Of a stretch of 64,000 bases of DNA, positions 8,935 to 26,745 are shown one piece after another. The position numbers were made by a program, and so were the translations under genes. This DNA comes from Mesorhizobium loti (GTDB lineage Bacteria; Pseudomonadota; Alphaproteobacteria; Rhizobiales; Rhizobiaceae): contig NZ_CP033334.1 of the NCBI RefSeq assembly GCF_013170705.1, positions 1,612,001 through 1,676,000 on the forward strand, read 5' to 3'. The notes below the pieces were generated by a model. It was not told where the DNA came from, searched no databases, and was given only the letters and a program-made list of their open reading frames with translations. Every line of letters starts with the position of its first letter. Positions within the stretch are counted from its first letter, which is position 1.

Positions 8935-9198
8935 CTATCGATCGAAGCCCATGCGCTTCAGCCAGTCCCTGCCGACGCCGCGATCGCGGATGATCGGCAG
9001 CGGATCTTCAGAATCAAGCCGCGCGCAGATGCGGTAGACTTCGAGTGTTTCCGCGCTCATCTCATCGCGCTTGTAGAAGAACATGGCGGCGGCATAGCGC
9101 GTGCGGCCTGACCATTTTTCGCCGAGCGGCGTGTTGACCAGATCCCACTGCTCGGCGGCTTCCCCATCTTCTTGCTGCTTGTCCGCTTCGTCGGCCAT
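8935..9198 (-). CDS. Conserved small hypothetical protein (87 residues)
   Basis: I do not recognise a family. It is an acidic N-terminal segment (MADEADKQQEDGEAAEQWD) followed by a compact body containing RTRYAAAMFFYKRDEM and ending in RDWLKRMGFDR. Its ATG stands 2 bases after the stop of the GcvT-like gene, so it is the last gene of the FAD oxidoreductase operon and is probably translationally coupled. The close coupling suggests an accessory role in that pathway. Confidence 0.7.
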   Translation of the reverse strand: MADEADKQQEDGEAAEQWDLVNTPLGEKWSGRTRYAAAMFFYKRDEMSAETLEVYRICARLDSEDPLPIIRDRGVGRDWLKRMGFDR

Positions 9199-9200
9199 GG

Positions 9201-10460
9201 TCAGAAATCCGCCGGCGGATTGGCGGTGCGGCGGTCGAGTTTTATGAAGGGCCGCGCCACCACCTTGGCCCGCTTCATCAGCTTCTGATATTGCAGCTCG
9301 CGCATGGCGTAGATCTCGACCCAGAGGTCGTCCACCATTGTATCACCATAGGGCCGCGCCAGCGAGGCGATGGCGATGTTGCGCTTGGCCATCGGCGACC
9401 ACATGGCGGCGCTGACCAGGCCAACCTCCTGGCTTTTCTTGTGGTAGACGATGGCGTGTTCGGCGGGGATGTTGCCTTCGATCTCGAGCCCGACCAGCAC
9501 ATGGCGCAGCCTGCGTTTGGCGCGCGCTTCAAGAATGGCGCGGCGGCCGTTGAAGTGGCCTTTCTCCGGATCGATCATGAAGCCGAGCCCGATCTCGTCT
9601 GGCATGCGCAGGCGATCGGCGCGGATGGCATGTTCGGCGGCGGTGAAGTCGGCATTGGCAACGATCAGCCCGGCCTCGAGCCGTGCGCGGTTCAGCGCCG
9701 TGTAGCCGATGGCACGGATGCCGCGCGGTTCGCCCGCTTTCATCAGCCGGTCCCACAGGCTCAGCGCCTTGTCGTCGGCTACGAACAATTCGTAGCCCAG
9801 ATCGCCGGTGAAGCCGGTGCGCGAGATGGTGACTGTGCCGCCGTCATGGGCGAACTCGGCGAGGTCGAAGATCTTCAGCCGCTCGACGCCGGTTAAGCCG
9901 GCATCGCGCAGCACGGCGAAGGAGGTTGGGCCCTGCAGGGCGAGCCCGGCGACGGCTTCGGTTTCTTCCTCGACGGTGACGTCGAATCCAATGGCGCTGT
10001 CCAGTAGCAAGGGCAGATGCCGCTCCTGCGAACACAGGCGAAAGCGCGTCGGCGACAGGCGAAACAGCGTGCCGTCGTCGAGGACAAAGCCCTGGTCGTC
10101 ACACCAGGCGGTATAGTGGACACGGCCAGGTCTCAGCCTGGTCACGTCGCGCAAGGTCACGCGGTCGAGAAAGGCCTCGGCATCCGGTCCTTCGATCCGG
10201 TATTTGGTCATCGGCGAGATGTCGAACAGCGCCGCCTGGCTGCGGATGGCGAAATATTCCAGCTCCTCGTCCCACAGCGAATGCGGCGCGCGGTAGCCCG
10301 CCCAATTGTACCAGTCCTGAGTCCTGGCCAGCGCATCGAGGCGCGGCTGGAACGGGGTGCCGAGGCGCAGCGTGCGGAAATGACCTTGCGCGGCGATGCG
10401 TGCGGAAACGGCCGCACTGGCGGTCTTTGCAACGGGCTTCTTCCTGGTTGCCTGGGCCAT
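9201..10460 (-). CDS. GcvT-like aminomethyltransferase family protein
   Basis: The 419 residues show the glycine-cleavage T-protein fold: RIEGPDAEAFLDRVTLRDV near 90, GRVHYTAWCDDQGFVLDDGT near 112, the signature SRTGFTGDLGYELFV near 212, and a C-terminal barrel domain. T-like domains bind tetrahydrofolate and take a one-carbon unit from a methylated or aminomethyl amine; relatives occur in dimethylglycine and sarcosine dehydrogenases and in demethylases. There is no glycine-cleavage P or H gene nearby. Instead it follows two FAD oxidoreductases (3-base gap), so I infer capture of a one-carbon unit released from an N-methylated amine by those enzymes. Confidence 0.85.
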   Translation of the reverse strand: MAQATRKKPVAKTASAAVSARIAAQGHFRTLRLGTPFQPRLDALARTQDWYNWAGYRAPHSLWDEELEYFAIRSQAALFDISPMTKYRIEGPDAEAFLDRVTLRDVTRLRPGRVHYTAWCDDQGFVLDDGTLFRLSPTRFRLCSQERHLPLLLDSAIGFDVTVEEETEAVAGLALQGPTSFAVLRDAGLTGVERLKIFDLAEFAHDGGTVTISRTGFTGDLGYELFVADDKALSLWDRLMKAGEPRGIRAIGYTALNRARLEAGLIVANADFTAAEHAIRADRLRMPDEIGLGFMIDPEKGHFNGRRAILEARAKRRLRHVLVGLEIEGNIPAEHAIVYHKKSQEVGLVSAAMWSPMAKRNIAIASLARPYGDTMVDDLWVEIYAMRELQYQKLMKRAKVVARPFIKLDRRTANPPADF

Positions 10461-10463
10461 GAC

Positions 10464-12044
10464 CTACCTCTTCATCGCGATGATGCGCCGCGCGGCGTTG
10501 AGCCCGGGTGCGCCGGAGATACCGCCTCCGGGATGCGAGCCGGCACCAGCCAGGAACAATCCTTCAAGCGGCGTGTCGTAGCCGGACCAGCCCGAGACGG
10601 GACGCGAGATCAGCATCTGGTCGGCCTGCAATTCGCCGTGGTGCCAGTGGCCGCCCGGCATGCGGTAACGCGTCTCGATATCGGCCGGCGTCAGCAACTC
10701 GGCATGGACAACGCTCTTGCCGATGCCCGACGCGTAAGCCTCGAGCTGCGCCAGGACAGCCTTGAGGAATTTCGGCTTGCCGGCAGCCCAACCTTCCTTC
10801 AGTGCATAGGGCGCGTATTGCACCACAGCCGACAACACACAGGCCCCAGCAGGTGCCAGCGATGGATCGGCAAGGCTGGGCAGGGTGATCTCCATCACCG
10901 GCTCAGGTGAGAACTCGCCGTATTTGGACGGATTAAAGGCGCGTTCGACATGATCGGGCGAAGGCGCGATGACCAGCCTGCCCTTGTGGCCGGCGGCATC
11001 GACGCCGGCGAATTGCGGCGGCCGATCGAGCGCCAGATTGAGTTTCGCCGCGTCGCCTTTCATCCGAATGTTCTTCACCTTGCGCACGAAGCCGGTGTCG
11101 AGCTCGCGCGGCCCGACAAGGTCGAGGAAAGTTGTCGCCGGATTGATGGCGGAGATGACCGTCCTGGCGCGCAGCTCCTCGCCAGTGTCGAGCGCGACGC
11201 CGACGGAGCGGCCTTTCTCCACGATGATCTTTCCGACCGGCGCCGATGTCCGGATGGTGACGCCGGCCATTTCCGCCGCCGCGCGGATGGCGGCGACAAC
11301 GGCGCCCATACCGCCTTGCGGCAGCATCTGTGCTCCGGATGCCCCGCCGGTCTCGCCGGCGAGGCGATAGTAGAGGCCGAGCAGCGAGGTCGGCGAGCGC
11401 GGGCCGAGATGGCTGCCGAGCGTCGCGTCGAAGGCGAGCAGGCCTTTCAGCCTGTCGTCTGCAAGCTGTTCGTCGAGCAGGTCGGCGACGTTCATGAGCA
11501 GCACGCGCAGGAAGTCGCGCATGTCTTCCTTGCCGAGCTTTTTCAGCGCCAGCGCGGTCTGGCCGAGTGAGGCGGTCTCGAGCAGCGACATGTCGGCAAG
11601 ATCGGGCGCGCGGCGGGAGAGGAACGGCTTCAGGATGCCGGCATAACGCAGCAGCTGCGCACGCAATTCCTTCCAGGCCGATTGCTCGGAGGAACTGGTG
11701 CCGGTCAGCACTTCGCCATAGGCGCCATGCAGGACCAGCGATGGGCCGTCCTTCGACAGTGCCACCGATGGCAGGAAGTCCGCGCGGGCGACTTTGAGCC
11801 CGTGTTTCTCCAGCTCCAGCGTCTTCACCACGTCGGGATGCAGACGGTTCAGCACATGGGCGATCGACGAGACACGAAAGCCCGGCGCGAACTCCTCGGT
11901 GCGAGCGGCGCCGCCGGTTTCGCTGCCCGCTTCCAGCAGGAGCACCTTGCGACCTGCTTTCGCCAGCGTGCCCGCGGCGACGAGACCATTGTGGCCGCCG
12001 CCGATGACAAGCACATCCCATCTTGGTGCATCAAATGACGTCAT
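10464..12044 (-). CDS. Phytoene-dehydrogenase-like FAD oxidoreductase, copy 2
   Basis: The 526 residues begin with the Rossmann motif VLVIGGGHNGLVAAGTLAKA (about 11-30) and LLLEAGSETGGAART, which bind FAD, and end with GLFLAGAGSHPGGGISGAPG, the C-terminal FAD-contact motif of phytoene-desaturase/NAD(P)-binding_8 proteins. It starts inside the end of the related upstream gene (14-base overlap). The family includes amine and carotenoid oxidoreductases, and there are no carotenoid genes here, so an amine or amine-derived substrate is more likely. The two neighbours share family and operon but differ greatly in sequence, so they may form a heteromer or act in succession. Confidence 0.85.
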   Translation of the reverse strand: MTSFDAPRWDVLVIGGGHNGLVAAGTLAKAGRKVLLLEAGSETGGAARTEEFAPGFRVSSIAHVLNRLHPDVVKTLELEKHGLKVARADFLPSVALSKDGPSLVLHGAYGEVLTGTSSSEQSAWKELRAQLLRYAGILKPFLSRRAPDLADMSLLETASLGQTALALKKLGKEDMRDFLRVLLMNVADLLDEQLADDRLKGLLAFDATLGSHLGPRSPTSLLGLYYRLAGETGGASGAQMLPQGGMGAVVAAIRAAAEMAGVTIRTSAPVGKIIVEKGRSVGVALDTGEELRARTVISAINPATTFLDLVGPRELDTGFVRKVKNIRMKGDAAKLNLALDRPPQFAGVDAAGHKGRLVIAPSPDHVERAFNPSKYGEFSPEPVMEITLPSLADPSLAPAGACVLSAVVQYAPYALKEGWAAGKPKFLKAVLAQLEAYASGIGKSVVHAELLTPADIETRYRMPGGHWHHGELQADQMLISRPVSGWSGYDTPLEGLFLAGAGSHPGGGISGAPGLNAARRIIAMKR

Positions 12045-13650
12045 GGGCCGGACTCATATGCGAGGTGGATTTGGCGAGATCGCGCAGGATTTCGGCGGCG
12101 GCATTGCGGCCGGGCGCGCCCATGACGCCGCCTCCCGGATGGGTGGAGGAGCCGCACATATAGAGGCCGCCGACCGGCGAGCGGTATTGCGCGTAGCCCG
12201 GCACCGGGCGATTGAACAGAAGCTGGTCGAAGGTCAGTTCGCCCTGGAAAATGTTACCTTCGGTGAGGCCGACCTCGGCTTCGATCTCGCGCGGCGTGCG
12301 CACCTCCATGTGGACGATGCGGTCGCGGAAGCCCGGCGAATACTCTGATATCTGCGCAATCACGCTCTCGGCGAAGCCGTCGCGATCGGCATCGGCCCAT
12401 TCGCGGCCGTTCACCTTGGGTGGCGCGTATTGCACGAAGCAACTCATGAAGTGCTTGCCCGGCGGCGCCATGGTGGGGTCGAGCGTGGTCGGGATCACCA
12501 TGTCGAGGAAAGGATCGGCCGACCAGCGCCCGGCCTTCCAGTCGTCATAGGCACGCTCCATGCGTTCCATCGAATCGGTGAAATGCATGTCGCCGCGATA
12601 GACCGGCGAATCCTTCGGCAGCGCCGGGAATTCCGGTAGCGAATCGAGCGCGATGTTGACCTTGCCGGAGGAGCCGCGGATCTTGAAGTTCCTGACCCGG
12701 CGCAGGAAAATGTCGGGCAATTCCTTTTCCTCGACAAGCTTCAGGAAGGTGCGCTTCACGTCGGCATTGGAGACGACGAGCTTGCCGTAAATCTCCTCGC
12801 CGCCGGCCAGCACCACGCCTTTGGCTTTGCCGCGTTGGACCAGCACATGGTCGACCTCGGCGCCGGTGCGGATGGTGCCGCCCGAGGCCTTGAACGACGC
12901 GGCCAGCGCCTTGGTGACCGCGCCCATGCCGCCGCGCGCATAGCCCCAGGCGCCGACCGAGCCGTCGACCTCGCCCATATAGTGGTGCAGCAGCACGTAA
13001 GCGGTGCCGGGCGACATCGGCCCGAGCGCGGTGCCGATGATGCCGGACAGAGCGAAGTTTGCCTTGATGACGTCGGTCTCGAAATACTCGTCGAGGAAGT
13101 CCGAGATCGACATGGTCCAGAAGCGCAGCGTCAGCGCCATTTCTTCCGCCGACAGGCCGGCAAACTTCCTGCCAAGATAAAGCAACTCGCCGAGGTCGCG
13201 CGGCTTGAGGCTGGTCGGGTCGGGCGCGGTGCGCATCAAAAGTGGCTGGATGAAACGGCACTGCCGCGTCACGTCGCGGGCGTAGCGGTCATAGGCTTCA
13301 GCGTCGCGTTTGGAGAATCGGGCGAATTCGCGCCGGTGCGCATCATGGTCGCGGTAGTTGGCGAGGTAGTCGCCGTCGCGGGTGAATACCGCGCCGCCCT
13401 CATAGGAGATGACCTGCAGGCCGAAGCGCGGCAGTTCCAGGTCGCGCATGATTTCGGGGCGGAACAGCGAGCAGACATAGGAGCAGTTGGAGTAAAGGAA
13501 GCCCGGCGTCAGTTCGCGGCTGGTGGCGGCACCGCCTAGCCAGTCGTTCTTCTCCACCACCAGCACGTCGAGCCCGGCGCGCTGCAGATAGCAGGCGTTG
13601 ACCAGGCCGTTGTGTCCGCCGCCGATGACGATCGCGTCCCAAGCTTTCAT
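12031..13650 (-). CDS. Phytoene-dehydrogenase-like FAD oxidoreductase, copy 1
   Basis: The 539 residues open with AWDAIVIGGGHNGLVNACYL (3-22) and VVEKNDWLGGAATS, the FAD-binding beta-alpha-beta unit, and end with GLYMCGSSTHPGGGVMGAPG. I start it at the ATG just before the Rossmann fold; an earlier ATG at 13725 would add 25 residues with no family character and would run into a dispersed repeat. It is the first gene of the four-gene minus-strand operon (FAD enzyme, FAD enzyme, GcvT-like, small protein). Its promoter region, shared with the divergent methyltransferase operon, holds a palindrome also found at two other promoters here. Confidence 0.86.
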   Translation of the reverse strand: MKAWDAIVIGGGHNGLVNACYLQRAGLDVLVVEKNDWLGGAATSRELTPGFLYSNCSYVCSLFRPEIMRDLELPRFGLQVISYEGGAVFTRDGDYLANYRDHDAHRREFARFSKRDAEAYDRYARDVTRQCRFIQPLLMRTAPDPTSLKPRDLGELLYLGRKFAGLSAEEMALTLRFWTMSISDFLDEYFETDVIKANFALSGIIGTALGPMSPGTAYVLLHHYMGEVDGSVGAWGYARGGMGAVTKALAASFKASGGTIRTGAEVDHVLVQRGKAKGVVLAGGEEIYGKLVVSNADVKRTFLKLVEEKELPDIFLRRVRNFKIRGSSGKVNIALDSLPEFPALPKDSPVYRGDMHFTDSMERMERAYDDWKAGRWSADPFLDMVIPTTLDPTMAPPGKHFMSCFVQYAPPKVNGREWADADRDGFAESVIAQISEYSPGFRDRIVHMEVRTPREIEAEVGLTEGNIFQGELTFDQLLFNRPVPGYAQYRSPVGGLYMCGSSTHPGGGVMGAPGRNAAAEILRDLAKSTSHMSPAHDVI

Positions 13651-13828: not shown

Positions 13829-13844
13829 CTGAATGAATGTTCAA
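13829..13844. promoter_or_regulatory. Putative BetI-type operator, site A
   Basis: CTGAAT-GAAT-GTTCAA, a YTGAAY-N4-RTTCAA palindrome, in the gap between the divergent FAD oxidoreductase and methyltransferase operons. Same pattern as sites B (22033-22048) and C (26765-26780). Confidence 0.6.
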
Positions 13845-13928: not shown

Positions 13929-14723
13929 ATGATCGAAACGGCAGATGCCGAGCCGGAGTATGACGACACCGCGATCCGCTTCCTCGAGGCGCTGTGGGGC
14001 GAGGGCTACCTGTCGCCAGGCGGTCCCGGCGAGGTCGACCGGGTGGTCGAAGGGATTTCGCTCAACGGCAAGACGGTCCTCGATATCGGCTGCGGCTCCG
14101 GCGGCATCACCTTGCATCTGGTCGAGCGCCACGGCGCCGCTCACGCCACCGGCTTCGATGTCGAGCAGCCGGTGATCGAAGCGGCCAGACGGCGAGCAGC
14201 AGTGCGTGGCTTCGCAAATCGCGTCAACTTCGTTCAATCGCTTCCCGGATCGCTGCCTTTCACCGATCGTTCCTTCGATGTCGTCTTCTCCAAGGATGCG
14301 CTGCTGCATGTGCCTGACAAGGACGCGTTGTTCGCCGAGATTTTTCGTGTGCTGAAGCCGGGCGGCGTCTTTGCCGCGTCCAACTGGATGATCGGGCATG
14401 ACGGCGAACCCTCGCCTGAGATGAAAGCCTATGTCGCCGCCGAGGGGCTGTCCTTCACCATGGCATCGCCGGCGCGCTATGCGCAGGCGATGCGAAGCGC
14501 GGGCTTTGCCGACATCACCGTGCGCGACCGCAACCCGTGGTACCGGGAGGTGGCGCGCGGGGAACTCGCACGGCTCAAGGGACCGCTCTACCGCCAGGCT
14601 GCCGCCGCGGTCGGCGCGGCCTATGTCGACAAGAACATCAAGACCTGGGAGGCAATGCAGAAGGTGCTTGACAGTGGCGAGCACCGTCCCACTCATCTGC
14701 GCGGTTGGAAGCCGGTTGGATAG
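13929..14723 (+). CDS. SAM-dependent methyltransferase
   Basis: The 264 residues hold a class I methyltransferase fold: motif [16 protein letters not shown] at about 48-62, [12 protein letters not shown] (acidic residue for SAM ribose), and [20 protein letters not shown] for motif IV. The overall look, including the late [11 protein letters not shown], resembles small-molecule N-methyltransferases of the phosphoethanolamine or glycine/sarcosine type. The ATG at 13929 follows GAGGG at the right distance; an open frame runs further upstream through the palindrome and is unlikely to be translated. It heads the operon with the BetI-like regulator and binding proteins, so it may methylate an amine handled by that pathway. 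Confidence 0.85.
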
Positions 14724-14729
14724 CCGGCA

Positions 14730-15416
14730 ATGCTGGAGACCGTCACATCCATGAAGACTTCCGAGGCCAGGGACGTTCTCGCCGAAACGACGCGAAAGAG
14801 CGACGCCGAAAAGCGCGGCCGCAAGGCTTCGAAGGAGGTCCGTCAATTGCAGCTGATCGAGGCAACGATCGATTCGCTGGCCAGGCGCGGTTACGCCGAG
14901 ACGACGATGGCCGATGTCGCCGATGGCGCCGGCCTCTCGCGTGGCATCGTCAACTTCCATTTCGAGAGCAAGGAAAAGCTGCTGATCGCGACGCTGCAGC
15001 ATATGTATGATGAGTACTCGGCGCATTGGCGCGCCGCACTGCAGAAAGCAGGCGACGATCCGGCACGGCAGCTGCAGCAGCTGGTGTGGGCCGACTTCGA
15101 CCGCTCGATCTGCAACAAGCGCAAGCTCGCTGCCTGGCTGGCCTTCTGGGGCGAGGCCAAGTCGCGGCCGACCTATCAGGCGCTGAGCAGTTCGCGCGAT
15201 AATTATTACCAGCAGGTCTTCATCGATCTCTGCACGGCGCTCAAGCAGAGCGGCGCGTATGCCTATGAGCCGCAGGTGATGGCGCTGGCGCTGTCGGCCA
15301 TGCTGGAAGGTCTGTGGCTGCGGCTGATGATGGGCACCGAGGACACAACGCGCGAAACAGCCTTGCAGGCGGCCAATGCTTTTTTGGCCGCGGCCTTCCC
15401 GAAGCATTACGGTTAG
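14730..15416 (+). CDS. BetI-like TetR family transcriptional regulator
   Basis: The 228 residues contain an N-terminal TetR helix-turn-helix (about 38-82: LIEATIDSLARRGYAETTMA, then GLSRGIVNFHFESKEKLL) and a C-terminal domain with KLAAWLAFWGEAKSRPTYQAL and MLEGLWLRLMMG. Both C-terminal stretches are characteristic of BetI, the choline-responsive repressor. There is no betaine aldehyde or choline dehydrogenase gene nearby, so the effector may be another quaternary or methylated amine. It is embedded in the operon it probably controls, 6 bases after the methyltransferase. An in-frame ATG at 14751 is an alternative start. Its likely sites are the palindromes at 13829, 22033 and 26765 (inference). 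Confidence 0.88.
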   Translation: MLETVTSMKTSEARDVLAETTRKSDAEKRGRKASKEVRQLQLIEATIDSLARRGYAETTMADVADGAGLSRGIVNFHFESKEKLLIATLQHMYDEYSAHWRAALQKAGDDPARQLQQLVWADFDRSICNKRKLAAWLAFWGEAKSRPTYQALSSSRDNYYQQVFIDLCTALKQSGAYAYEPQVMALALSAMLEGLWLRLMMGTEDTTRETALQAANAFLAAAFPKHYG

Positions 15417-15464: not shown

Positions 15465-16547
15465 ATGAAGAAACTCAGCCGACGCCTGACATTGACATTG
15501 GCGCTGGGCGGCGCGCTTGCGGCTTCGGCGGCAGCGTTCGCCGTCGCCGCGGACAAGGACCTGATCGTGTTCGACTGGTCCGGCTACGAGGACCCGAGCT
15601 TCCATCCGAAATATGTCGAGAAGAACGGCGATTCGCCGACCTTCGCCTTCTTCGGCGACGAGGACGAGGCGTTCGAGAAGGTCCGTTCCGGCTTCAAGGC
15701 CGATCTCGGTCACCCCTGCTCGCAGAGCGTGACGAAGTGGCGCGAAGCCGGGCTGCTGCAGCCGCTTGATACCTCGAAGATCACGGGCTGGAAGGACCTC
15801 AATCCCGGTATCATGGCGATGAAAAACCTCGCCACGACCGACGATGGCAAGGCGTGGTTCATGCCCTGGGACTGGGGCAACACGCAGCTCACCTACAACT
15901 CCTCCAAGATCGACGCCAAGGACGTGCAGTCGCTGAAGGCATTCGCAGATCCGAAGTTCAAGGGCCGGGTGTCGATCGGCGACAATGTCGACGATGCCTA
16001 TGCGCTGGCCGCGCTTGCCATCGGCATGAAGGACTGGACCACGATGACGGACGACCAGTTCAAGCAGGCGTCCGACTTCCTGCGCCAGGTGCACAAGAAC
16101 GTCCGCTCCTACTGGACCGACACCACCGACATCGTGCAGCTGTTGAGTGGTGGCGAGGTCGACCTCGCCTGGGCCTGGAACGATGCGACGGTGCAATCCG
16201 TCAAGGCAGGCGTGCCGATCAAGTCCGTAAAGGACACCAATGAAGGCATCTCGACCTGGGTCTGCGGTTACGTGCTGTTCAAGGACGCGCCCGGCAATAT
16301 CGACAAGGCCTATGATTATCTCAACGCCGTCAACGATCCGGAGACCGCCAAGGTGCTGGTCAAGGACTGGGGCTATGGCCAGGCCAATGCCAAGGGCATG
16401 GCTGGCGTCGACCAGGCGATCCTGAAGGAAAAGGGCTATGACGACGTGCAGAAATTCGTCGACAAGACGCTGTTCCAGTCGCCGCTGCCGTCCGATCTCA
16501 AACTGAAGATGATCGCCGAATTCGAGAAGATCAAAGCCGGGTACTGA
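15465..16547 (+). CDS. PotD/PotF-like periplasmic binding protein, copy 1
   Basis: The 360 residues start with a long signal peptide (about 1-29, cleaved near AVAADKD). The mature part is a spermidine/putrescine-type solute-binding protein (DLIVFDWSGYED at 31-42; GRVSIGDNVDDAYAL; ISTWVCGYVLFKDAP). It should deliver a polyamine-like or amine substrate to the PotABC-like parts at 19-22 kb. It is followed by a close paralogue after a 111-base gap holding a strong hairpin. The two differ around residue 240, where this copy has WAWNDATVQSVKAG and the other WGWGQTLIAMSGQG, so the two may bind different ligands. Confidence 0.88.
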   Translation: MKKLSRRLTLTLALGGALAASAAAFAVAADKDLIVFDWSGYEDPSFHPKYVEKNGDSPTFAFFGDEDEAFEKVRSGFKADLGHPCSQSVTKWREAGLLQPLDTSKITGWKDLNPGIMAMKNLATTDDGKAWFMPWDWGNTQLTYNSSKIDAKDVQSLKAFADPKFKGRVSIGDNVDDAYALAALAIGMKDWTTMTDDQFKQASDFLRQVHKNVRSYWTDTTDIVQLLSGGEVDLAWAWNDATVQSVKAGVPIKSVKDTNEGISTWVCGYVLFKDAPGNIDKAYDYLNAVNDPETAKVLVKDWGYGQANAKGMAGVDQAILKEKGYDDVQKFVDKTLFQSPLPSDLKLKMIAEFEKIKAGY

Positions 16548-16658: not shown

Positions 16659-17735
16659 ATGACGCCAATGCTGCGCCGCCTTGCACTTGCCGCCGCCTGC
16701 ATGATCGGCGCCGGCGGGGTCTATGCCTGGGCGGAAGGCGGCGGCGATCTCGTGGTGTTCGACTGGTCCGGTTACGAGGACCCGCTGCTGCATCCGGCCT
16801 ACACCGCCAAACACGGCGCCGAGCCGACCTTCGCCTTCTTTGGCGACGAGGATGAAGCCTTCGAGAAGATGCGGGCGGGCTTCAAGGCCGATATCGCGCA
16901 TCCCTGTTCGCAAAGCGTGGCGAAGTGGCGCGACGCGGGGCTGCTGCAGCCGCTCGACACCTCCCGGATTGCCGGCTGGAAAGACCTCAATCCCGGCATC
17001 ATGGCGATGAAGAACCTCGCCACCACCGAGGACGGCAAGGCCTGGTTCATGCCGTTCGACTGGGGCAATACGGCATTGCTCTACCGCACCGACAACGTGA
17101 CGGCCGATGAGGCGCAGTCGCTGCGGATCCTTGCCGATCCGAAATTCAAGGGCCGCGTCACCATCGGCGACAATGTCGACGACGCCTATGCGCTGGCGAG
17201 CCTGGTGATCGGCCTCAAGGACTGGACCAAGATGACCGACGCGCAATTCAAGGAGGCATCCGATTTCCTGCGCCAGGTGCACAAGAACATCCGTCTCTAC
17301 TGGACCGACTCGAGCGATATCGACCAGGCTTTTTCCGGCAACGAGGTCGACCTTGCCTGGGGCTGGGGCCAGACACTGATCGCGATGAGCGGGCAAGGCG
17401 TTCCCGTCGCCATGAACCGCGATACCAAGGAAGGCATGTCGACCTGGGTGTGCGGCTACGTGCTGATGAAGGATGCGCCGGGCAAGCTCGACCAGGCCTA
17501 TGATTTCCTGAACGCGGTCAACGCGCCCGATATTTCGAAATACATGGTCACGACATTCGGTTACGGCCATGGCAACAGTGCCGGCATGGCCGCGATCGAT
17601 CACAAGGTGCTGGCCGAGCGCGGTTTCGACGACATCGACAAGTTCCTCGACAAGACGCTGTTCCAGCAGCCGGTCGCGCCTGATCTGAAGAAGCGCATGG
17701 TCGACGAATTCGAGAAGATCAAGGCCGGATATTGA
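16659..17735 (+). CDS. PotD/PotF-like periplasmic binding protein, copy 2
   Basis: The 358 residues have a signal peptide (about 1-23) and a mature domain that follows copy 1 almost without gaps (shared FAFFGDEDEAFEKMRAGFKA, GWKDLNPGIMAMKNLATT, ADPKFKGRVTIGDNVDDAYA), so the pair arose by tandem duplication. The last codons overlap the TTG start of the amine oxidase gene (TTGA), so these two are translationally coupled. Differences between the copies cluster in the region after residue 230 and in the N-terminal segment. Confidence 0.88.
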   Translation: MTPMLRRLALAAACMIGAGGVYAWAEGGGDLVVFDWSGYEDPLLHPAYTAKHGAEPTFAFFGDEDEAFEKMRAGFKADIAHPCSQSVAKWRDAGLLQPLDTSRIAGWKDLNPGIMAMKNLATTEDGKAWFMPFDWGNTALLYRTDNVTADEAQSLRILADPKFKGRVTIGDNVDDAYALASLVIGLKDWTKMTDAQFKEASDFLRQVHKNIRLYWTDSSDIDQAFSGNEVDLAWGWGQTLIAMSGQGVPVAMNRDTKEGMSTWVCGYVLMKDAPGKLDQAYDFLNAVNAPDISKYMVTTFGYGHGNSAGMAAIDHKVLAERGFDDIDKFLDKTLFQQPVAPDLKKRMVDEFEKIKAGY

Positions 17736-19042
17736 CGAGCGAACTGGAAAGAGCCGACGTCGTCATCGTCGGTGCCGGCTTCACCGGCCTGTCGGCTGCA
17801 CTTGAGTTGAAGCAGGCCGGCATAGGCTTCCTGCTGCTTGAAGCGCGCGACCGTGCCGGTGGACGGGTCGAGGCGGTCCGCAATGGATTTGGCGAACGCA
17901 TCGACAGCGGCGGCCAGTTCCTGTGCGAGGACATGCCGGAAGTGATGGCGCTGGCGAAGGCACGCGGCAAGACATTCGTCGCCACCTATGTCGAGGGCGA
18001 TTTCATCACCCATCCGCCAATGCCGGCCAGGGACGCCAAGCAGACCTATCACGGCGCGATGGCGATCCGCGAACGCATGAACCGCATCGAGCCGGACGAC
18101 ACCTCCATAGAGGGCATGAGTGTCGCGGCCTGGCTGGAACAGCAGCGTGATCCCATCGATGCCAAGACGGCCTTCCGCTCGATGATCGAAGGCCTGTGGT
18201 GCCTGCCGATGGACAAGGTGCCGCTCTGGTATCTGATCGACAATGACCGCCGCATCACCAACGAAGTGCCGGAACTGCAATATTCCCTGCGCGAGACCAT
18301 GCAGTCGCTGGCCGAGGATCTTGCTGGCGATCTCGGCGACCGGATGCGGTTGAACGAACCGGTCACGCGCATCGAGCATGGGCCGCAAGGCGTTCGTGTC
18401 GTCACGGGCAATGGCGTGATCGAAGCGCGCCACGTGCTGATCGCGCTGCCGCCGGCAACAGCCGCGAAGCTCGATTTCGCACCGGCCTTGCCGACAAGAC
18501 TCGCGACGGCGCTTGGCGTCTGGGAAAGCGGCGCGGTGATCAAGATCCTGGTGCGCTATCCCAGGCCATTCTGGCGCGAGCAGGGTTTGAGCGGCATGGT
18601 GATGTGGCGCGACCTGCCGGGACTGTTCGCCTGCGATGCCAGCAAGGATGCGGAGCATGCCGCGCTCGTCGTCTTCATCGGCGGACCGCTCGCGCTGCGC
18701 TGGCGGGGGCTGAGTAAAACGGCACTTCGTGCGGAAGTGACGGCACGATTGCAGGACGCGCTCGGTCCGGATGCCGGCGATATGCTTGATTTCAGTTCAC
18801 GCGATTGGATTGAGGATCGCTGGAGCGGCGGCGCCTATAGCGACCTCATCGTCGACGTGACGGCCAGGGATGCCGAGCGGACGATGCTCGCGGGTGCGCC
18901 GCCGGTTCATTTCGCCGCTTCGGAACTGTCGCCGTCATTCCCCGGCTATGTCGAAGGGGCGATCGTCGCCGGGCGCATCGCGTCGCGCAAGATCCTGGCG
19001 CTGCTTCAGTCGCCCATCGCCACCAGCGCCTCGGGATCGTAG
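17732..19042 (+). CDS. FAD-dependent amine oxidase (flavin monoamine oxidase family)
   Basis: The 436 residues open with VVIVGAGFTGLSAALELKQA (about 10-29) and LLLEARDRAGGRVE, the FAD-binding signature of the amine oxidase/monoamine oxidase family. Later ERIDSGGQFL, RHVLIALPP and the closing region VEGAIVAGRIASRKI fit too. It would oxidise an amine and release aldehyde and ammonia or a smaller amine. The TTG start overlaps the stop of the binding-protein gene by 4 bases. Its end overlaps the convergent ATPase gene by 37 bases. Confidence 0.86.
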   Translation: MTSELERADVVIVGAGFTGLSAALELKQAGIGFLLLEARDRAGGRVEAVRNGFGERIDSGGQFLCEDMPEVMALAKARGKTFVATYVEGDFITHPPMPARDAKQTYHGAMAIRERMNRIEPDDTSIEGMSVAAWLEQQRDPIDAKTAFRSMIEGLWCLPMDKVPLWYLIDNDRRITNEVPELQYSLRETMQSLAEDLAGDLGDRMRLNEPVTRIEHGPQGVRVVTGNGVIEARHVLIALPPATAAKLDFAPALPTRLATALGVWESGAVIKILVRYPRPFWREQGLSGMVMWRDLPGLFACDASKDAEHAALVVFIGGPLALRWRGLSKTALRAEVTARLQDALGPDAGDMLDFSSRDWIEDRWSGGAYSDLIVDVTARDAERTMLAGAPPVHFAASELSPSFPGYVEGAIVAGRIASRKILALLQSPIATSASGS

Positions 19043-20139
19043 GCAAGGCGGATCGGGGTGCCGACGGGAATGTCGTCGGCGCCGAAATCGTTGGTCTCGG
19101 TCACCGATAGCGGCTTTTCCAGTCCGGGTATCTCGACGATCAGATGGGTGATCTCGCCGAAATAGTGGCGTTCGACCACCTTGCCGGCGACCTCGAATTT
19201 TGCCGTGGCATTGTCCCATAAAACGCGCAGGCGCTCGGGCCTTATGCCGAGCGTGGCGGCGCCACCATTGCGCACGAAAGCCTTCGGCTTGTCGGTCTTG
19301 ACGCGGCCGAAGCCCAACGTGTCGACGATCAATGAGGCGCCGCTCTCCTCGACGATCTCGGCCTTGACGAAGTTCATGCCGCCGAGGAAGTCGGCGACCT
19401 GGCGGTTGACCGGCCGCTGGTAGATCTCCTTGGGCGAGGCGACCTGCGCGATCCTGCCGCCGAACATGACGGCGATGCGGTCGGACATGGCGAGCGCCTC
19501 ATACTGGTCGTGGGTGACCAGCACGAAGGTGATGCCGACGGCCTGCTGCAGGCGGCGCAGTTCGACCTGCATCTGCTCGCGCAGCTTCTTGTCGAGCGCC
19601 GACAGCGGCTCGTCGAGCAGCAGCACCTTGGGCCGCATCACCAGTGCGCGGGCAAGCGCCACGCGCTGGCGCTGGCCGCCTGACAGTTCGGTGGCCAGCC
19701 GCTTGCCAAGGCCGGTCAGCGAAACCTGCGCCAATGCCTCCTCGACGCGGCGCTTCTCTTCGCCACCCTGCAATTTCAGCCGCTTCAGACCGTAGGCGAC
19801 ATTCTGCTCGACATTGAGGTGCGGGAAGATCGCATAGCTCTGGAACACCATGTTGGTCGGCCGTCGATTGGCCGGGATGCCTTCCATCGGCTGGCCGCCG
19901 ACCGCGATCGAACCGCTGGTCGGGTTGTCGAAGCCGGCGATCATGCGCAAAAGCGTGGTCTTGCCACAGCCGGACGGCCCGAGCAGCGAGAAGAATTCGC
20001 CCTCCCGGATGGTCAGGGACGCATCGTCCAGCGCCTTGAACGATCCATAGCTGCGGGTGACGTTGCGGATCTCGATCATGGCCCGATCCGACTGGGCCCG
20101 ATCGGATTGGGGGCGCTCGATCTGCGGCTGTTCAGGCAT
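19006..20139 (-). CDS. ABC transporter ATP-binding protein, PotA-like
   Basis: The 377 residues have Walker A LLGPSGCGKTTLL, Q-loop FQSYAIFPHL, signature LSGGQRQRVALARAL and Walker B VLLLDEPLSALD, followed by a C-terminal TOBE domain (about 290-370), as in PotA/polyamine-type ATPases. I start it at the ATG at 20139, which overlaps the permease stop by 8 bases; the N-terminus has a small repeated SDRAQSDRA segment before the family homology begins at MIEIRNVTRSYG. It energises the two permeases upstream in the operon. Confidence 0.9.
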   Translation of the reverse strand: MPEQPQIERPQSDRAQSDRAMIEIRNVTRSYGSFKALDDASLTIREGEFFSLLGPSGCGKTTLLRMIAGFDNPTSGSIAVGGQPMEGIPANRRPTNMVFQSYAIFPHLNVEQNVAYGLKRLKLQGGEEKRRVEEALAQVSLTGLGKRLATELSGGQRQRVALARALVMRPKVLLLDEPLSALDKKLREQMQVELRRLQQAVGITFVLVTHDQYEALAMSDRIAVMFGGRIAQVASPKEIYQRPVNRQVADFLGGMNFVKAEIVEESGASLIVDTLGFGRVKTDKPKAFVRNGGAATLGIRPERLRVLWDNATAKFEVAGKVVERHYFGEITHLIVEIPGLEKPLSVTETNDFGADDIPVGTPIRLAYDPEALVAMGD

Positions 20140-20953
20140 AGAGGCCTCCCTCGTTCTGGGTGCGTCTGGCCGCGCGGCGACGCAGGATTTCGGCAACTGT
20201 CATCAGCAGGAAAGAGGCAACGAGCAGCAGCGTGCCCAGCGCCAGAACGCCTGGCAATTTCGAGGCGAAGCGCAACTGGCCCCAGATGTAGATCGGCAGC
20301 GTCGCTTCGGTGCCGGTCAGGAAGAAGGCGATGATGAATTCGTCGAGCGAGATGGTGAAGCAGACGAGCAGGCTGGAGATGATGGCCGGCGCCACCATCG
20401 GCAGCGTCACCCGCCGGAAGGTGCCGAAGGCGCTTTCACCAAGGTCGGCGGAGGCTTCCTCCAGGCTGCGGTCGAAGCCTTCGAAACCGGAGGTCAGCAC
20501 CGTCATCGAATAGGGGATGCAGACCAGCACATGGCCGAGCACGACGGTGAACAGCGACAGGCTCAAGCCCAGCTGAAGCATCACCAGCAGCATGGAGATG
20601 GCGACGATCACCTCGGGCAGCACCAGCGGTGCCATGATCAAGCCGTTGATGGTGCGGCGGCCGGGATAGCGGTAGCGGGTGATCGAGCGGGCGGCGAGGA
20701 TGCCGAGCACGGTGGCGAGAACCGATGCGCAGACACCGACTTTGAGGCTGTTCCAGGCGGCGTCGAGCAGGGCCGGCGTGTGCGGCAGATCGGCATACCA
20801 TTGCAAGGTGAAGCCGGTGAGCGGGAATTTCGGCGTAGGTGCGGTGTTGATCGAGAAGATCGGCAGGAAGATGACGGGCAGATAGAGGAAGACGATATAG
20901 AGGAACGCATAGACGGACAGCCAGCCGCCCGACAGGAAACGCCGCGTCCTCAT
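20132..20953 (-). CDS. ABC transporter permease, PotC-like
   Basis: The 273 residues form six hydrophobic segments with the EAA loop EEASADLGESAFGTFRRVTL near residue 165, the coupling motif for the ATPase. The short N-terminus and the sequence LDEFIIAFFLTGTEATLPIY match PotC/PotI permeases of polyamine transporters. It overlaps the upstream permease by 4 bases. Confidence 0.9.
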   Translation of the reverse strand: MRTRRFLSGGWLSVYAFLYIVFLYLPVIFLPIFSINTAPTPKFPLTGFTLQWYADLPHTPALLDAAWNSLKVGVCASVLATVLGILAARSITRYRYPGRRTINGLIMAPLVLPEVIVAISMLLVMLQLGLSLSLFTVVLGHVLVCIPYSMTVLTSGFEGFDRSLEEASADLGESAFGTFRRVTLPMVAPAIISSLLVCFTISLDEFIIAFFLTGTEATLPIYIWGQLRFASKLPGVLALGTLLLVASFLLMTVAEILRRRAARRTQNEGGLYA

Positions 20954-21867
20954 CGTGCCAGCCTCTGCAAGGCGCGGATGATCAGCACCGTGGCCCCTGC
21001 CATCAAGGTGACGATCAGCATGGTGGTGACGGAAAGGGCGGCACCCAGCGGCCAGTTGGCGGCCTTGCCGAATTGCGCCTGGATGGCATTGGCGATCATG
21101 ACGCCGTCCTTGCCGCCGACCAGCTTCGGCGTGACGTAATCGCCGACGGTCGGGATCATGACGATCAGGGCCGCCGAGATGACGCCCGGCGCGGACAGCG
21201 GCAAGGTCACGCGCAGGAACGAACGCAAGGGGCCATCGCCAAGGTCGGTGGCCGCTTCGACCAGCGTGCGGTCGACCTTCTCCAGCGAGACGAAGATCGG
21301 CAGGATGGCGAAGGCCGCCCAGGCGTGGGTGAGCGTGATGATGACGGCGCTCGAATTGTAGAGCAGGGCCGTCGACGGCTCATCGATGATGCCGAGGCCC
21401 ATCAGGCCGGAATTCAGGACGCCATTGTAGCCAAGGATGACCTTCCAGGACATGACGCGCAGGAGATAGCTGGTCCAGAACGGGATGGTGATGAGAAACA
21501 GCCATAGGCTCTTGTGACGGCCGCCATGGAAGGAAATGAAGTAGGCGATCGGGTAGGCGAGGATGACGGTGAGCAAGCTCACCGTTAGCGAGATGTAGAG
21601 CGAGCGCCACAACAGATCCCGATAGATCGGTTCGGTCAGCGCGACGCGGTAATTCTCCAGCGTGAAGGTGCGGTCGATGGTCAGGTAGTGCTGCGTCCAG
21701 AACGAATGGGCGATGACCACCAGGATCGGCAGCACCAGCAGGATCAGCGCATAGAGAAAGGTCGGGCTGATCAGGGCGAAGCCCTGTACGGGCTCGGACT
21801 GCAGAAGGGCATTTCGTCTGGCCCGCGTCATGCGCAGCGGGGGCGACCCTTCCGCCGCCGCCGTCAT
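20950..21867 (-). CDS. ABC transporter permease, PotB-like
   Basis: The 305 residues start at an ATG with GGAGCC 6-11 bases before it; the open frame upstream of this ATG would pass through the palindrome-bearing control region and lacks permease character. Six membrane segments and the EAA-type loop VEAATDLGDGPLRSFLRVTL (near residue 205) place it with PotB/PotH. First gene of the potBCA-like operon; its control region, shared with the divergent aminotransferase gene, contains operator site B. Confidence 0.88.
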   Translation of the reverse strand: MTAAAEGSPPLRMTRARRNALLQSEPVQGFALISPTFLYALILLVLPILVVIAHSFWTQHYLTIDRTFTLENYRVALTEPIYRDLLWRSLYISLTVSLLTVILAYPIAYFISFHGGRHKSLWLFLITIPFWTSYLLRVMSWKVILGYNGVLNSGLMGLGIIDEPSTALLYNSSAVIITLTHAWAAFAILPIFVSLEKVDRTLVEAATDLGDGPLRSFLRVTLPLSAPGVISAALIVMIPTVGDYVTPKLVGGKDGVMIANAIQAQFGKAANWPLGAALSVTTMLIVTLMAGATVLIIRALQRLAR

Positions 21868-22032
21868 TGCCAGGCTCCGGGGGCTCCGGGCGTGATTTCG
21901 GTTGCTGGCCTGGACTGTTCCGCCATGCGGCATCCCATTGTGCTGGCGCCGACTTGTTGTTCCCCTTGCCGGCTTTCTTTCATCATGCCCGTATCCGCGG
22001 ATTGAAATCAAGCGCTATTTCTGCAATATTGA

Positions 22033-22048
22033 TTGAACGGACATTCAA
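22033..22048. promoter_or_regulatory. Putative BetI-type operator, site B
   Basis: TTGAAC-GGAC-ATTCAA, with perfect TGAA/TTCA arms, between the divergent transporter and aminotransferase genes. Flanking bases are AT-rich. Confidence 0.6.
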
Positions 22049-22135
22049 AATGAAGTGAAGAAAGCCCGGATTTTCGGCATTTGACGCTGGATTGCATGGC
22101 CGAGAAGAAATCGACGAGATGATGTGGAGGCGATC

Positions 22136-23554
22136 ATGGCGGCTGCGAGAGATCTAAGGGCGACCGAGACGGCCGAGGCCGGCGGCGGCGATGCCATCGA
22201 ACTGGCCAGGCGCCATCTCATCCAGCCCTGGCCTTATGCCGGTTCCGTCGGCGCGGAAGCACGTGCGCTGATCGGCGAGGGCGACGGCATCTACATCACC
22301 GACAGCACCGGCAAGCGGCTGATCGACGGGCCGGCCGGCATGTGGTGCGTCAATGTCGGCCACCGCCGCGAGGAGCTGGCCAAGGTGATGTATGACCAGG
22401 CGATGGCGCTTTCCTACAACACGCCCTGGTACACGATGAACGCGCCGTCGGCGGAGCTTGCCATGCGCATCGCCGGCCATGCGCCGGGCGATCTCAGCCA
22501 TGTCTTCTACACGACCGGCGGCTCTTCGGCCGTGGAGACGGCACTGCGCTTCATGCAGTTCTACAACAATGTGCGCGGCCGCCCGGAAAAGAAGCTGATC
22601 CTGTCGCGCGGCGGCGCCTATCATGGCTCGACCTACCTGTCGGCCTCGCTCAACGGCCGCCCGCGCGACCGCGACTGGATGGATGGGGCCGACGAGCTTG
22701 TGATCAAGCTGTCCTCGCCCGACCCGTTCCGCCGTCCGCAAGGCATGAGCCTTGCCGCCTTCACCGATTTCCTCGTCGACCAGTTCCGCGACACGGTCGC
22801 CCGTCTCGGCGCCGACAGAATAGGCGCTTTCGTCGGCGAGCCGGTGCAGGCCTCCGGCGGCGTCGTCGTGCCGCCCGATGGCTATCTCGGGCGCATCCGC
22901 GAGATCTGCCGCGACAACGACATCCTCTATGTCTCCGACGAGGTGGTGACGGGCTTTGGCCGGCTTGGCCATGTCTTCGCCTCGGGCGACGTGTTCGGCA
23001 TCGACCCCGACATGATCACCTTCGCCAAGGGCGTCACCTCGGGTTATTTTCCGCTCGGTGGCGTCATCATCTCGGAACGGCTGCTTGAAGAACTGCGCCG
23101 CTCGAACCATCCCGATGCGATGTTCGGCCATGGCCTGACCTACACCAGCCACCCGGTCGGTTGCGCCGTGGCGCTGAAGAACCTCGACCTGCTGGAAGAA
23201 AGCGTGCTTGCGCACACGCAGGCGGTCGCCCCCTATTTCCAGGCGCAGCTGAAGACGCTGGAAGACCTGCCGTTGGTTGGCGAGGTGCGCGGCGTGGGAC
23301 TGATGGGCTGCGTGGAATGCGTCGCCGACCGCGAAAGCAAGGACCCGCTGCAACTCGACAAGGATGTCGGCAAACGCATCGACGGCCATTGCCATGAGCT
23401 TGGCCTGCTGGTGCGTCCGCTGATCAACATGTGCGTGATGTCGCCGCCGCTGATCATCACGCGCGAGCAGATCGACGACATGGTCGGAATCCTGCGCGAA
23501 GGCATTTCACGCACGATGGATGACCTGCGTCGGGAAGGCGTGTGGCAGGGGTAA
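22136..23554 (+). CDS. Class III (omega) aminotransferase, PLP-dependent
   Basis: The 472 residues show YTTGGSSAVETALRFMQFY (PLP phosphate binding), SRGGAYHGSTYLSAS, DEVVTGFGRLG and the Schiff-base lysine in ITFAKGVTSGYFPLGG. This is the class III fold used by putrescine/polyamine, taurine and beta-alanine aminotransferases. In this setting a polyamine or diamine substrate transferring to pyruvate is likely (SpuC-like), but not provable. GGAGG precedes the ATG at 22136 by 6 bases; the GTG 12 bases upstream is an unlikely start because it overlaps that site. Confidence 0.88.
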   Translation: MAAARDLRATETAEAGGGDAIELARRHLIQPWPYAGSVGAEARALIGEGDGIYITDSTGKRLIDGPAGMWCVNVGHRREELAKVMYDQAMALSYNTPWYTMNAPSAELAMRIAGHAPGDLSHVFYTTGGSSAVETALRFMQFYNNVRGRPEKKLILSRGGAYHGSTYLSASLNGRPRDRDWMDGADELVIKLSSPDPFRRPQGMSLAAFTDFLVDQFRDTVARLGADRIGAFVGEPVQASGGVVVPPDGYLGRIREICRDNDILYVSDEVVTGFGRLGHVFASGDVFGIDPDMITFAKGVTSGYFPLGGVIISERLLEELRRSNHPDAMFGHGLTYTSHPVGCAVALKNLDLLEESVLAHTQAVAPYFQAQLKTLEDLPLVGEVRGVGLMGCVECVADRESKDPLQLDKDVGKRIDGHCHELGLLVRPLINMCVMSPPLIITREQIDDMVGILREGISRTMDDLRREGVWQG

Positions 23555-23589: not shown

Positions 23590-23628
23590 GTGCCTGTTGG
23601 GCAGGTGATCTCCTCCGACCTTGCGGAT

Positions 23629-24658: not shown

Positions 24659-24718
24659 GACGTTCTCCTTGGTGCAGGGTTGTGGCCAGCACTGCCTTGC
24701 TGTGCTATTCAGCCTAAG

Positions 24719-24755: not shown

Positions 24756-24774
24756 TTTTGCAAGCGGGTGTGTC

Positions 24775-25392: not shown

Positions 25393-25504
25393 CGGGCCAA
25401 ACGGTCTGAAGCGCGCCAGGCCCGCGCGGGCTCCGGTTACGCCCCACCTGGCGCAGTTCCGGGAAAGTATGAAACGGGTCCGCAATTGCTTGACAACAAA
25501 TAGC

Positions 25505-25531
25505 CAGAGCGGTTCGCCGTTTCCGTGAAAT
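25505..25531 (-). repeat. Degenerate copy of a palindromic intergenic repeat
   Basis: AGAGCGGTTCGCCGTTTCCG-TGAAA matches, in reverse complement, most of the hairpin at 57903-57935 (GAGCGTTTCACGGAAACGGC). Here the second arm is lost. It lies between convergent TetR and Rieske genes. Confidence 0.6.
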
Positions 25532-25542
25532 AGTGAACTGAT

Positions 25543-26745
25543 CTAGGATCGCGACCTGAGCGCGTCGTTCAGATTCCACATGTCCTTCTCCTCGGGCGCG
25601 GTCTCGAGGCCCAGCACCGGCAGCATCTTGCGCAGATGGTCGTGGTGGGTGCGCACACCGTATTCCAAGTCTGAGAGATAGAAGCCTTCGAAGGCCTCGG
25701 ACAGCATGGATTCGTTCGACCACACGGACAGCTGCACATCTTCCGACATGGTGTCGCGGTCGATGCGGAAGGACAGGTATCTTGCGGCGGCCTGCTCGCG
25801 GCTTTCGTCGCGGTAACGGTAGATCGCGCCGCGCAGCAGGGTCTGCCCCGTCGACAACGGAAACTCCTGGTAGAACTGCACGGATTCCGGCATCACCGAA
25901 ATGACCGCATTGGGGAAAATGCCGTAATAGACCCAGGCCTTCTTCAGATAGTCCGGCAGATGCGTCGGCTCGGGCGCGATCTTGACGTAGTTCCTGACGC
26001 TCCAGCGGCGGCCGGCATGCGGGTTGTAGGTGGCGAAGGACCGCGACACGCCATTGATGAAGGGCTCGTCGAAATAGGTCGCACCATAGAGATCCTGCAA
26101 GGCGGGATGCGCCATGGCGACGTGATAGCCCTCATTGTCGACATCGCGCACGGACTTCCAGTTGACCGGCGTCTTTTGGGTCCAGATGCCCCAGGACGGC
26201 ACCATGTCGGCGGCATTGTAATGCGCGAATTCGGGCTCGATCGGCTTCATCAGCTCAGCGACCGAAGGCTGTGGGCCGCCATTGCGGAAGCGGATGAAAA
26301 TGAAGCCCATCCAGATTTCGAGATCGAGCTGCATCAGGCCGAACTCGGTCTTGTCGAGATCGGGGAACGAGCGCGGGCGCGCGGCGCCGCGCAGCGTTCC
26401 GTCGAGATTGTAAACCCAGCCATGGAACGGGCACACCAGCGCGTTCTTGCAATTGCCCTGGCTGTCGGCGACGACGCGGCTGCCGCGATGGCGGCACATG
26501 TTGTTGAAGCCGCGCACGACGCCATCCTTGCCGCGCACGATGAGGGCGCGTTCGCCGACCACGTCCATGGTCAGGTAATCGCCGGCGTTCGGGATGTCGG
26601 AAACATGGCCGACGATCTGCCAGTGGTTGCGGAAAACATGCTCCTTCTCGAGCTCGAGAAGGGCATCGGAATGGTAACTCCAGCCCGGTAGTCCCCGCCG
26701 GTCCCAATCGTTGGGGATCGCCACGTCACGGAGGTGCGGGTTCAT
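25543..26745 (-). CDS. Rieske-type aromatic/amine oxygenase, alpha subunit
   Basis: The 400 residues have the Rieske [2Fe-2S] ligands in CRHRGS (C-x-H) and CPFHGW (C-x2-H) near residues 84-110, and the mononuclear-iron site in DVDNEGYHVAMAHPAL near 200, with histidines and a distal aspartate. This pattern is shared by oxygenases that demethylate quaternary amines (glycine betaine, stachydrine, carnitine) and by aromatic ring hydroxylases. No reductase or ferredoxin partner lies next to it. An operator palindrome of the same type as at 13.8 and 22.0 kb stands about 20 bases before the ATG, which ties it to the amine region and favours demethylation of an N-methylated compound. Confidence 0.87.
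   Translation of the reverse strand: MNPHLRDVAIPNDWDRRGLPGWSYHSDALLELEKEHVFRNHWQIVGHVSDIPNAGDYLTMDVVGERALIVRGKDGVVRGFNNMCRHRGSRVVADSQGNCKNALVCPFHGWVYNLDGTLRGAARPRSFPDLDKTEFGLMQLDLEIWMGFIFIRFRNGGPQPSVAELMKPIEPEFAHYNAADMVPSWGIWTQKTPVNWKSVRDVDNEGYHVAMAHPALQDLYGATYFDEPFINGVSRSFATYNPHAGRRWSVRNYVKIAPEPTHLPDYLKKAWVYYGIFPNAVISVMPESVQFYQEFPLSTGQTLLRGAIYRYRDESREQAAARYLSFRIDRDTMSEDVQLSVWSNESMLSEAFEGFYLSDLEYGVRTHHDHLRKMLPVLGLETAPEEKDMWNLNDALRSRS

Follow-up and report, generated by a model that had tools for sequence, protein, structure and literature searches.

Glycine betaine is catabolised by GbcAB, DgcAB and sarcosine oxidase, and the gamma-N-methylaminobutyrate oxidase of the nicotine plasmid pAO1 joins oxidation of an N-methyl group by flavin adenine dinucleotide (FAD) to capture of the carbon by folate, with gamma-aminobutyrate (GABA) as the product. 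Here we analyse a gene cluster of Mesorhizobium loti, contained in a 64,000-nucleotide stretch (the window; positions 1612001-1676000 of the single-contig 6.87-Mb genome), which resembles parts of these systems. The cluster encodes a Rieske oxygenase, two CrtI/CrtO-like FAD proteins (FAD1 and FAD2), a GcvT-like folate protein (GcvT), a class III aminotransferase, a methyltransferase (MT), a TetR regulator, a Pot-type ABC transporter with two binding proteins (SBP1 and SBP2), an amine oxidase and a small protein, OrfX. These fourteen neighbouring genes are inherited together and are apparently under common control. With a probability that we put at roughly 0.5, they would form a regulon for the uptake and breakdown of an N-methylated, cationic, non-aromatic amine through demethylation, one-carbon capture and deamination.

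With glycine betaine catabolism the cluster shares the logic of Rieske, flavin and folate enzymes, a BetI-type regulator and a similar operator. However, it has an aminotransferase and a Pot transporter, neither DgcA nor Sox is among the genes described, and its Rieske protein scores only 128.8 bits against the GbcA model of NCBIfam (cut-off 670). Glycine betaine itself is the less likely substrate, because a better glycine-betaine monooxygenase candidate (525 bits, also below that cut-off) is encoded elsewhere in the genome. The closest solved relative of the Rieske oxygenase is the carnitine monooxygenase CntA (3e-33), which has the same bridging Glu; however, only residues 20-220 align, and no reductase gene adjoins in the window. 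GcvT is similar to the C-terminal folate domain of trimethylamine N-oxide (TMAO) demethylase, but lacks the N-terminal half of that enzyme and is accompanied by two FAD proteins. The pAO1 oxidase is one fused protein, whereas FAD1, FAD2 and GcvT are separate. The Pot, Puu and Spu systems likewise have a Pot-type transporter and a class III aminotransferase, and a PuuC-like dehydrogenase gene lies beside the set in one relative, but a Rieske oxygenase, GcvT and an FAD pair are not known from those pathways. In agreement with an earlier sequence-only reading of this DNA, which could name no such pathway, titles and abstract openings in the literature revealed no characterised identical cluster.

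Family scans found all gene types named in that reading where it had placed them, in the order of Table 1. We followed their inheritance in 80 related loci picked by FAD2 and, as a separate draw with strict cut-offs, in 101 genomes of the family. Among the latter, the Rieske gene was found in 25, the aminotransferase and OrfX in 24 each, FAD2 and GcvT in 21 each (the identical set of genomes) and MT in 20; at the cut-offs used, none of the other five occurred outside the 25 Rieske genomes. The co-occurrence table of Rieske and aminotransferase reads 24, 1, 0 and 76 (p=2.4e-22), and in genome G585 the Rieske gene lies with a partial aminotransferase gene on a 5.2-kb contig. The sequence-only reading had held that it would fall if the genes were not co-inherited; the core set is co-inherited, and with a shared operator. 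The 80 loci hold FAD1 in 79 and GcvT in 74 cases (loci without them are short or end nearby), TetR in 71, a PotA-like gene in 65, an aminotransferase-like gene in 58, MT in 43, a Rieske-like gene in 36 and the amine oxidase in 33; these counts are lower bounds, as many loci stop before the Rieske position; the looser counts also take in distant relatives. SBP1- and SBP2-like proteins occur together in 17 of the 80 loci. The amine oxidase and the second binding protein, which the sequence-only reading had counted into the set, are thus present in the window but are not core members.

Among 121 genomes of the order, GcvT was found in 11, five of which have an SBP1 match of at least 49% identity; genome G018 has such a match without GcvT. 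The binding protein is therefore less tied to the set than the core genes are, which weighs against its strict co-inheritance. Of 398 genomes across the phylum, 11 had a GcvT match at 1e-70, and all 11 belong to the window's own class. The closest named loci are those of Mesorhizobium (FAD2 identity 95-98%). A locus titled Exiguobacterium profundum (L097) carries a cluster of alphaproteobacterial type and probably stems from a mislabelled metagenome-assembled genome.

Common control is indicated by a 16-bp palindrome, TTGAAYNNNNRTTCAA, shared by the FAD2/MT, PotB/aminotransferase and Rieske upstream regions. The whole 6.87-Mb genome contains two exact copies, both in the cluster, and the third cluster site differs by one mismatch. 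Places with up to one mismatch number 19 in the genome, versus 14 for the backward control, and the four window matches with up to two mismatches are not above shuffled sequences (mean 3.36), so that the operator argument rests on the exact sites and on conservation. The 80 related loci contain 71 exact and 56 one-mismatch copies; for four control palindromes there were no exact and 3, 18, 2 and 0 one-mismatch copies. The word regulon in the sequence-only reading thereby gains support.

We then counted sites (up to one mismatch) upstream of individual genes in loci L021-L084, a group called Rhizobiales and set by locus number, which includes metagenome-assembled genomes such as L079 (titled Rhodobacteraceae) and L074 (Gammaproteobacteria); genes were counted if their identity was at least 50%, if the match started within residues 1-60 and if 150 bases or more of sequence preceded them. 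The site preceded the aminotransferase gene in 49 of 50 cases, PotB in 43 of 44, Rieske in 17 of 17, MT in 38 of 42, FAD2 in 52 of 63, TetR in 15 of 58 and a sulfatase gene in 2 of 20. It was not found upstream of FAD1 (0/63), GcvT (0/60), PotA (0/48), PotC (0/48), SBP1 (0/54), the amine oxidase (0/33) or a peptidase M19 gene (0/20). In seven loci the Pot-aminotransferase block stands on the opposite side of GcvT; the aminotransferase/PotB site is there in all seven and the FAD2 site in six (L063 being without it). Sites in L103-L106 were scored as far from genes, since gene positions were not computed there. We take the palindrome to resemble the BetI box. The TetR protein, the putative ligand of the palindromes, exceeds the cut-off of one family (Table 1) and remains below that of TIGR03384 (126.4 bits, cut-off 201.3). 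Two one-mismatch palindromes also lie near a TetR gene, a 964-aa GcvT-containing frame and an OYE-like protein gene in another region (L145 and L146; G000:C1:3105000-3132000), possibly another methylated-amine cluster.

The cofactor motifs of the enzymes are conserved. In 34 Rieske orthologues picked, CxH-x-CxxH is present in all and ExxHxxxxH and DVDNEGYH in 33 each. The Glu at the bridging position aligns with that of carnitine monooxygenase and of PDB 3vca, which we take to be stachydrine demethylase; a Glu three residues before the first iron-binding His is presumably a mark of CntA-type oxygenases of quaternary amines. FAD1 and FAD2 are paralogues (36% identity); GxGxxG is present in every orthologue picked, 54 for FAD1 and 59 for FAD2. 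Neither reaches the cut-off of CrtO (FAD2 302.3 and FAD1 226.9 bits, cut-off 1000) or of crtI_fam (139.3 and 105.5 bits, cut-off 238.1). GcvT passes the Pfam GCV_T cut-off (191.4 bits, cut-off 25.6), scores below those of T-protein (NF001567, 199.9 bits, cut-off 300) and TMAO demethylase (NF053776, 250.8 bits, cut-off 1100), and is closest to the folate domain of the latter. Its Asp105 aligns with an Asp of both proteins, presumably the catalytic Asp of T-protein. The proteins thus stay below the curated cut-offs of the named catabolic families tested (GbcA, TMAO demethylase, T-protein, CrtO/CrtI), and none of the curated families examined gives the pathway a name. Structure matches of the aminotransferase include enzymes of the GABA/beta-alanine type.

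Two further proteins belong to the set without having an assigned step in the proposed route. OrfX directly follows gcvT on the 3' side in 56 of the 59 loci of L021-L083 in which gcvT was found, and is present in 24 of the 25 Rieske genomes (all but G585), even in genomes that gave no FAD2 or GcvT match. It thus follows the Rieske gene more closely than it follows GcvT and is a core member of the set. OrfX has no Pfam match; of its homologues at 1e-3 (501), most of the 120 listed are nameless or 'hypothetical' and one is labelled a deaminating oxidase. At the same threshold no match was found in L077, L080, L083, L085, L086, L088, L090, L093-L095, L099, L102, L140 and L141 (some of these loci stop close to GcvT). 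The OrfX core resembles residues 7-62, at the N-terminus, of a DddL-like cupin from the Rhodobacterales relative Fuscovulum (45% identity over 56 aa, E 2e-14), and OrfX also aligns with two further cupins. MT resembles phosphoethanolamine N-methyltransferase: its 11 best PDB matches (4e-36 to 7e-21) all carry the name PMT or that of this enzyme. In the family sample MT occurs only in Rieske-carrying genomes (20 of 20).

Variant loci of relatives bear on the function. In Fuscovulum, a single collinear run comprises a HemL/GntE-like class III aminotransferase, FAD2, FAD1, GcvT, two Rieske proteins, a PotF-like protein, ABC genes, a cupin of the DMSP_lyase family (the DddL-like protein above, with the OrfX-like part at its N-terminus; L101:25680-26531), an amidohydrolase and MT (56% identity to that of the window). 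The different class III aminotransferase in the same place suggests that transamination matters, rather than the particular protein. The Fuscovulum binding protein scores 316.2 bits against PotF (cut-off 636). In Kiloniella (L095), where no Rieske gene was labelled in a locus that begins at a contig end, the set is adjoined by an aldehyde dehydrogenase with PuuC as its best score (549 bits, cut-off 850), an acyl-CoA dehydrogenase, an NDP-forming CoA ligase about equally similar to acetate, 4-hydroxybutyrate and 3-hydroxypropionate ligases (297-314 bits, cut-offs 1200-1300) and a Fer2/NAD reductase (flavohemoprotein 107, NADH oxidoreductase 98 and GbcB 91 bits, far below the cut-offs). These neighbours hint at a route from a short-chain amine to an aldehyde and on to an acid. 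A beta-lactamase-family serine hydrolase gene (L135:12756-14063, L136:8598-9821) lies by the Rieske gene in genomes without FAD2 and GcvT, next to it in G512 and two genes away in G553.

The above features would fit the following scheme, whose substrate, reactions and order of steps we infer from resemblance. A BetI-like repressor would control the regulon and the Pot-type transporter would bring the amine in. The Rieske oxygenase, served by a reductase encoded elsewhere, would take one methyl off the quaternary or tertiary nitrogen, FAD2 and FAD1 would oxidise the remaining N-methyl groups, and GcvT would hand the one-carbon unit to tetrahydrofolate. A primary amine end would be converted to an aldehyde by the aminotransferase, or by the amine oxidase in some strains, and the aldehyde would be oxidised to an acid. 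The substrate would most likely be a C3-C4 diamine or omega-amino compound that is N-methylated at one end, such as the N-methyl, N,N-dimethyl or N,N,N-trimethyl derivative of putrescine or diaminopropane. The Rieske Glu, the likeness of GcvT to TMAO demethylase, the BetI-like TetR protein, the PotF-like binding protein and the PuuC-like neighbour all hint in this direction. The parts resemble those of known N-demethylation routes, and the idea is plausible. In SBP1, which scores 94.9 bits against PotD (cut-off 582) and 78.5 against PotF (cut-off 636), Trp38, Tyr41, Asp173, Asp177, Trp238 and Trp265 are invariant among 14 aligned sequences. Given the roles that we assume for the corresponding PotD/PotF positions, these residues, together with a Cys in place of one Asp (see below), would suit a ligand whose two ends differ, one of them being an ordinary amine.

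Several observations weigh against this scheme. All hints as to the substrate come from resemblance, and the CoA ligase and reductase of Kiloniella match several families, all far below the cut-offs. SBP1 has a Cys where PotD and two PotF-like proteins carry an Asp, a position that presumably matters for the ligand, which leaves some doubt about a plain diamine. The better PDB matches of FAD2 (the protein covered by the PDB comparison) are phytoene/carotene desaturases, amine oxidases appearing at 2e-4 or weaker. Position 105 of GcvT varies among 47 sequences (D in 33, N in 13, H in one). The cluster has no Rieske reductase, and MT, resembling an N-methyltransferase, the opposite of demethylation, is an odd and unexplained partner. 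The breakdown logic of the sequence-only reading therefore stands in part, favoured by the Rieske Glu, GcvT and the uptake system and strained by MT and by the variable Asp105. The palindrome was not found upstream of the cluster genes in L085-L100, a mostly but not exclusively Rhodobacterales group (FAD2 0/16, Rieske 0/9), and the set is patchy: in one draw, three of the nine genomes from the window's own genus lacked GcvT. Moreover, G512 and G553 have the Rieske, aminotransferase, MT and OrfX genes without FAD2 and GcvT; in G583, also without these two, a different class III aminotransferase adjoins Rieske, MT and OrfX; and L140 and L141, from other families, have FAD2-FAD1-GcvT with no Rieske gene labelled within the 20 kb read. 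Such separations would be expected if the Rieske-aminotransferase-Pot-MT-OrfX genes served one compound and FAD2-FAD1-GcvT another, with the two compounds occurring together and one repressor answering to both. We regard this as rather improbable, since in the family sample FAD2 and GcvT always accompany the Rieske and aminotransferase genes (21 of 21).

The same enzymes could act on an omega-amino-acid betaine, such as gamma-butyrobetaine, beta-alanine betaine or 5-trimethylaminovalerate, the Rieske and FAD/GcvT proteins demethylating it and the aminotransferase acting last, on the freed amino acid. That order mirrors glycine-betaine catabolism, a class III aminotransferase would suit GABA or beta-alanine, the Rieske protein is near CntA, and SBP1 is without one acidic PotD position; but the PotF-like binding protein of Fuscovulum suggests a dication, and the PuuC-like dehydrogenase of Kiloniella better suits an aminoaldehyde, though it could act after the aminotransferase. 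We consider such a substrate possible but unlikely. An N-methylated heterocycle or amino-acid betaine (homarine, trigonelline, stachydrine) is improbable: Rieske oxygenases act on some of these betaines, and by record titles marine and soil Alphaproteobacteria are covered, but none of those pathways is known to need a class III aminotransferase together with Pot-type uptake, and we noticed no gene for ring cleavage among the annotated part of the neighbours. MT would find a role if it methylated an imported polyamine, thereby blocking cyclisation of the aminoaldehyde during deamination and oxidation, after which the Rieske and FAD/GcvT proteins would reclaim the methyl groups; methylation would then take the place of the gamma-glutamyl tag of the Puu pathway. 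The confinement of the phosphoethanolamine-N-methyltransferase-like MT to Rieske genomes in the family sample would agree with this, as would the polyamine-type proteins of relatives (a binding protein and an aldehyde dehydrogenase). However, MT is absent at the cut-off from 5 of the 25 Rieske genomes (among them G585, with its 5.2-kb contig, and G517, which has a 43% MT relative near the aminotransferase), the route would consume S-adenosylmethionine, and we know of no precedent, which makes it very improbable. An alphaproteobacterial polyamine route with N-methylation as a removable protecting group, and with OrfX as a small dedicated partner of the Rieske protein, is a speculation to which we attach hardly any weight.

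The demethylation scheme thus remains our preferred reading of the genes in Table 1. They lie in the interval 8935..26745 of the sequence-only reading, OrfX being added at its left end. Inside it, between the aminotransferase and Rieske genes, are an aldo-keto reductase gene and a second TetR gene (TetR2; together 23629-25392). With tblastn at 1e-15 neither was matched in any of the 80 related loci, but many of these stop short of this region, just 36 having any Rieske-like match. The aldo-keto reductase (23629-24763) is spread over two overlapping frames and is probably a broken gene or a sequence error. The start of FAD2 is probably at 13650 rather than 13725, as most of its listed homologues have 539 aa. 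Open frames of 914-934 aa had suggested a FAD1-GcvT fusion, which we rejected: the case of L099 is a frame change within FAD1, while FAD1 and GcvT of L012 and L014 occupy different frames. To the left, genes for a peptidase M19 (7843-8931) and a PehA-like sulfatase/phosphodiesterase (4078-5664) are each near the cluster in 20 of the 80 loci; the peptidase gene was rejected as a regulon member on this count and for want of an upstream operator.

Table 1. Genes and candidate operators of the cluster, with positions in the window
Feature	Position	Strand	Remarks
OrfX, 87 aa, family-less conserved protein, 4th gene of the FAD2-FAD1-GcvT run	8935..9198	-	
GcvT-like folate protein	9201..10460	-	Pfam GCV_T 2.2e-56; nearest PDB TMAO demethylase 3e-52
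FAD1, CrtI/CrtO-like FAD protein	10464..12044	-	
FAD2, CrtI/CrtO-like FAD protein	12031..13650	-	open reading frame open to 13725; start inferred
Operator 1 (candidate), CTGAATGAATGTTCAA, FAD2/MT intergenic	13829..13844	.	one mismatch to palindrome
MT, phosphoethanolamine-N-methyltransferase-like	13929..14723	+	open reading frame open from 13833; start inferred
BetI-like TetR regulator	14730..15416	+	NF001978 128.4 bits, cut-off 118
SBP1, PotD-like binding protein	15465..16547	+	
SBP2, second PotD-like binding protein	16659..17735	+	65% identity to SBP1
Flavin monoamine oxidase-like protein, accessory	17732..19042	+	
PotA-like ATPase	19006..20196	-	TIGR01187 354.3 bits, cut-off 355.6; start probably downstream of reading-frame start
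PotC-like permease	20132..20953	-	
PotB-like permease	20950..22011	-	start probably downstream of reading-frame start
Operator 2 (candidate), TTGAACGGACATTCAA, PotB/aminotransferase intergenic	22033..22048	.	exact palindrome
Class III aminotransferase	22124..23554	+	NF005447 725.7 bits, cut-off 618; PDB 3i5t 3e-140
Rieske oxygenase alpha subunit	25543..26745	-	motifs and CntA likeness
Operator 3 (candidate), TTGAATAATCATTCAA, 5' of Rieske gene	26765..26780	.	exact palindrome

The set extends over Mesorhizobium, other Rhizobiales and genomes of Rhodobacterales type, and, owing to the shared operator, candidate compounds can be screened directly for induction. If the substrate is found, a function would be given to genes now labelled 'phytoene desaturase family', 'aromatic ring-hydroxylating dioxygenase' and 'polyamine transporter', and the new small protein family OrfX, together with the CrtI-like FAD proteins, would be placed in amine chemistry. 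It would also reveal a source of carbon, nitrogen and one-carbon units used by such bacteria.

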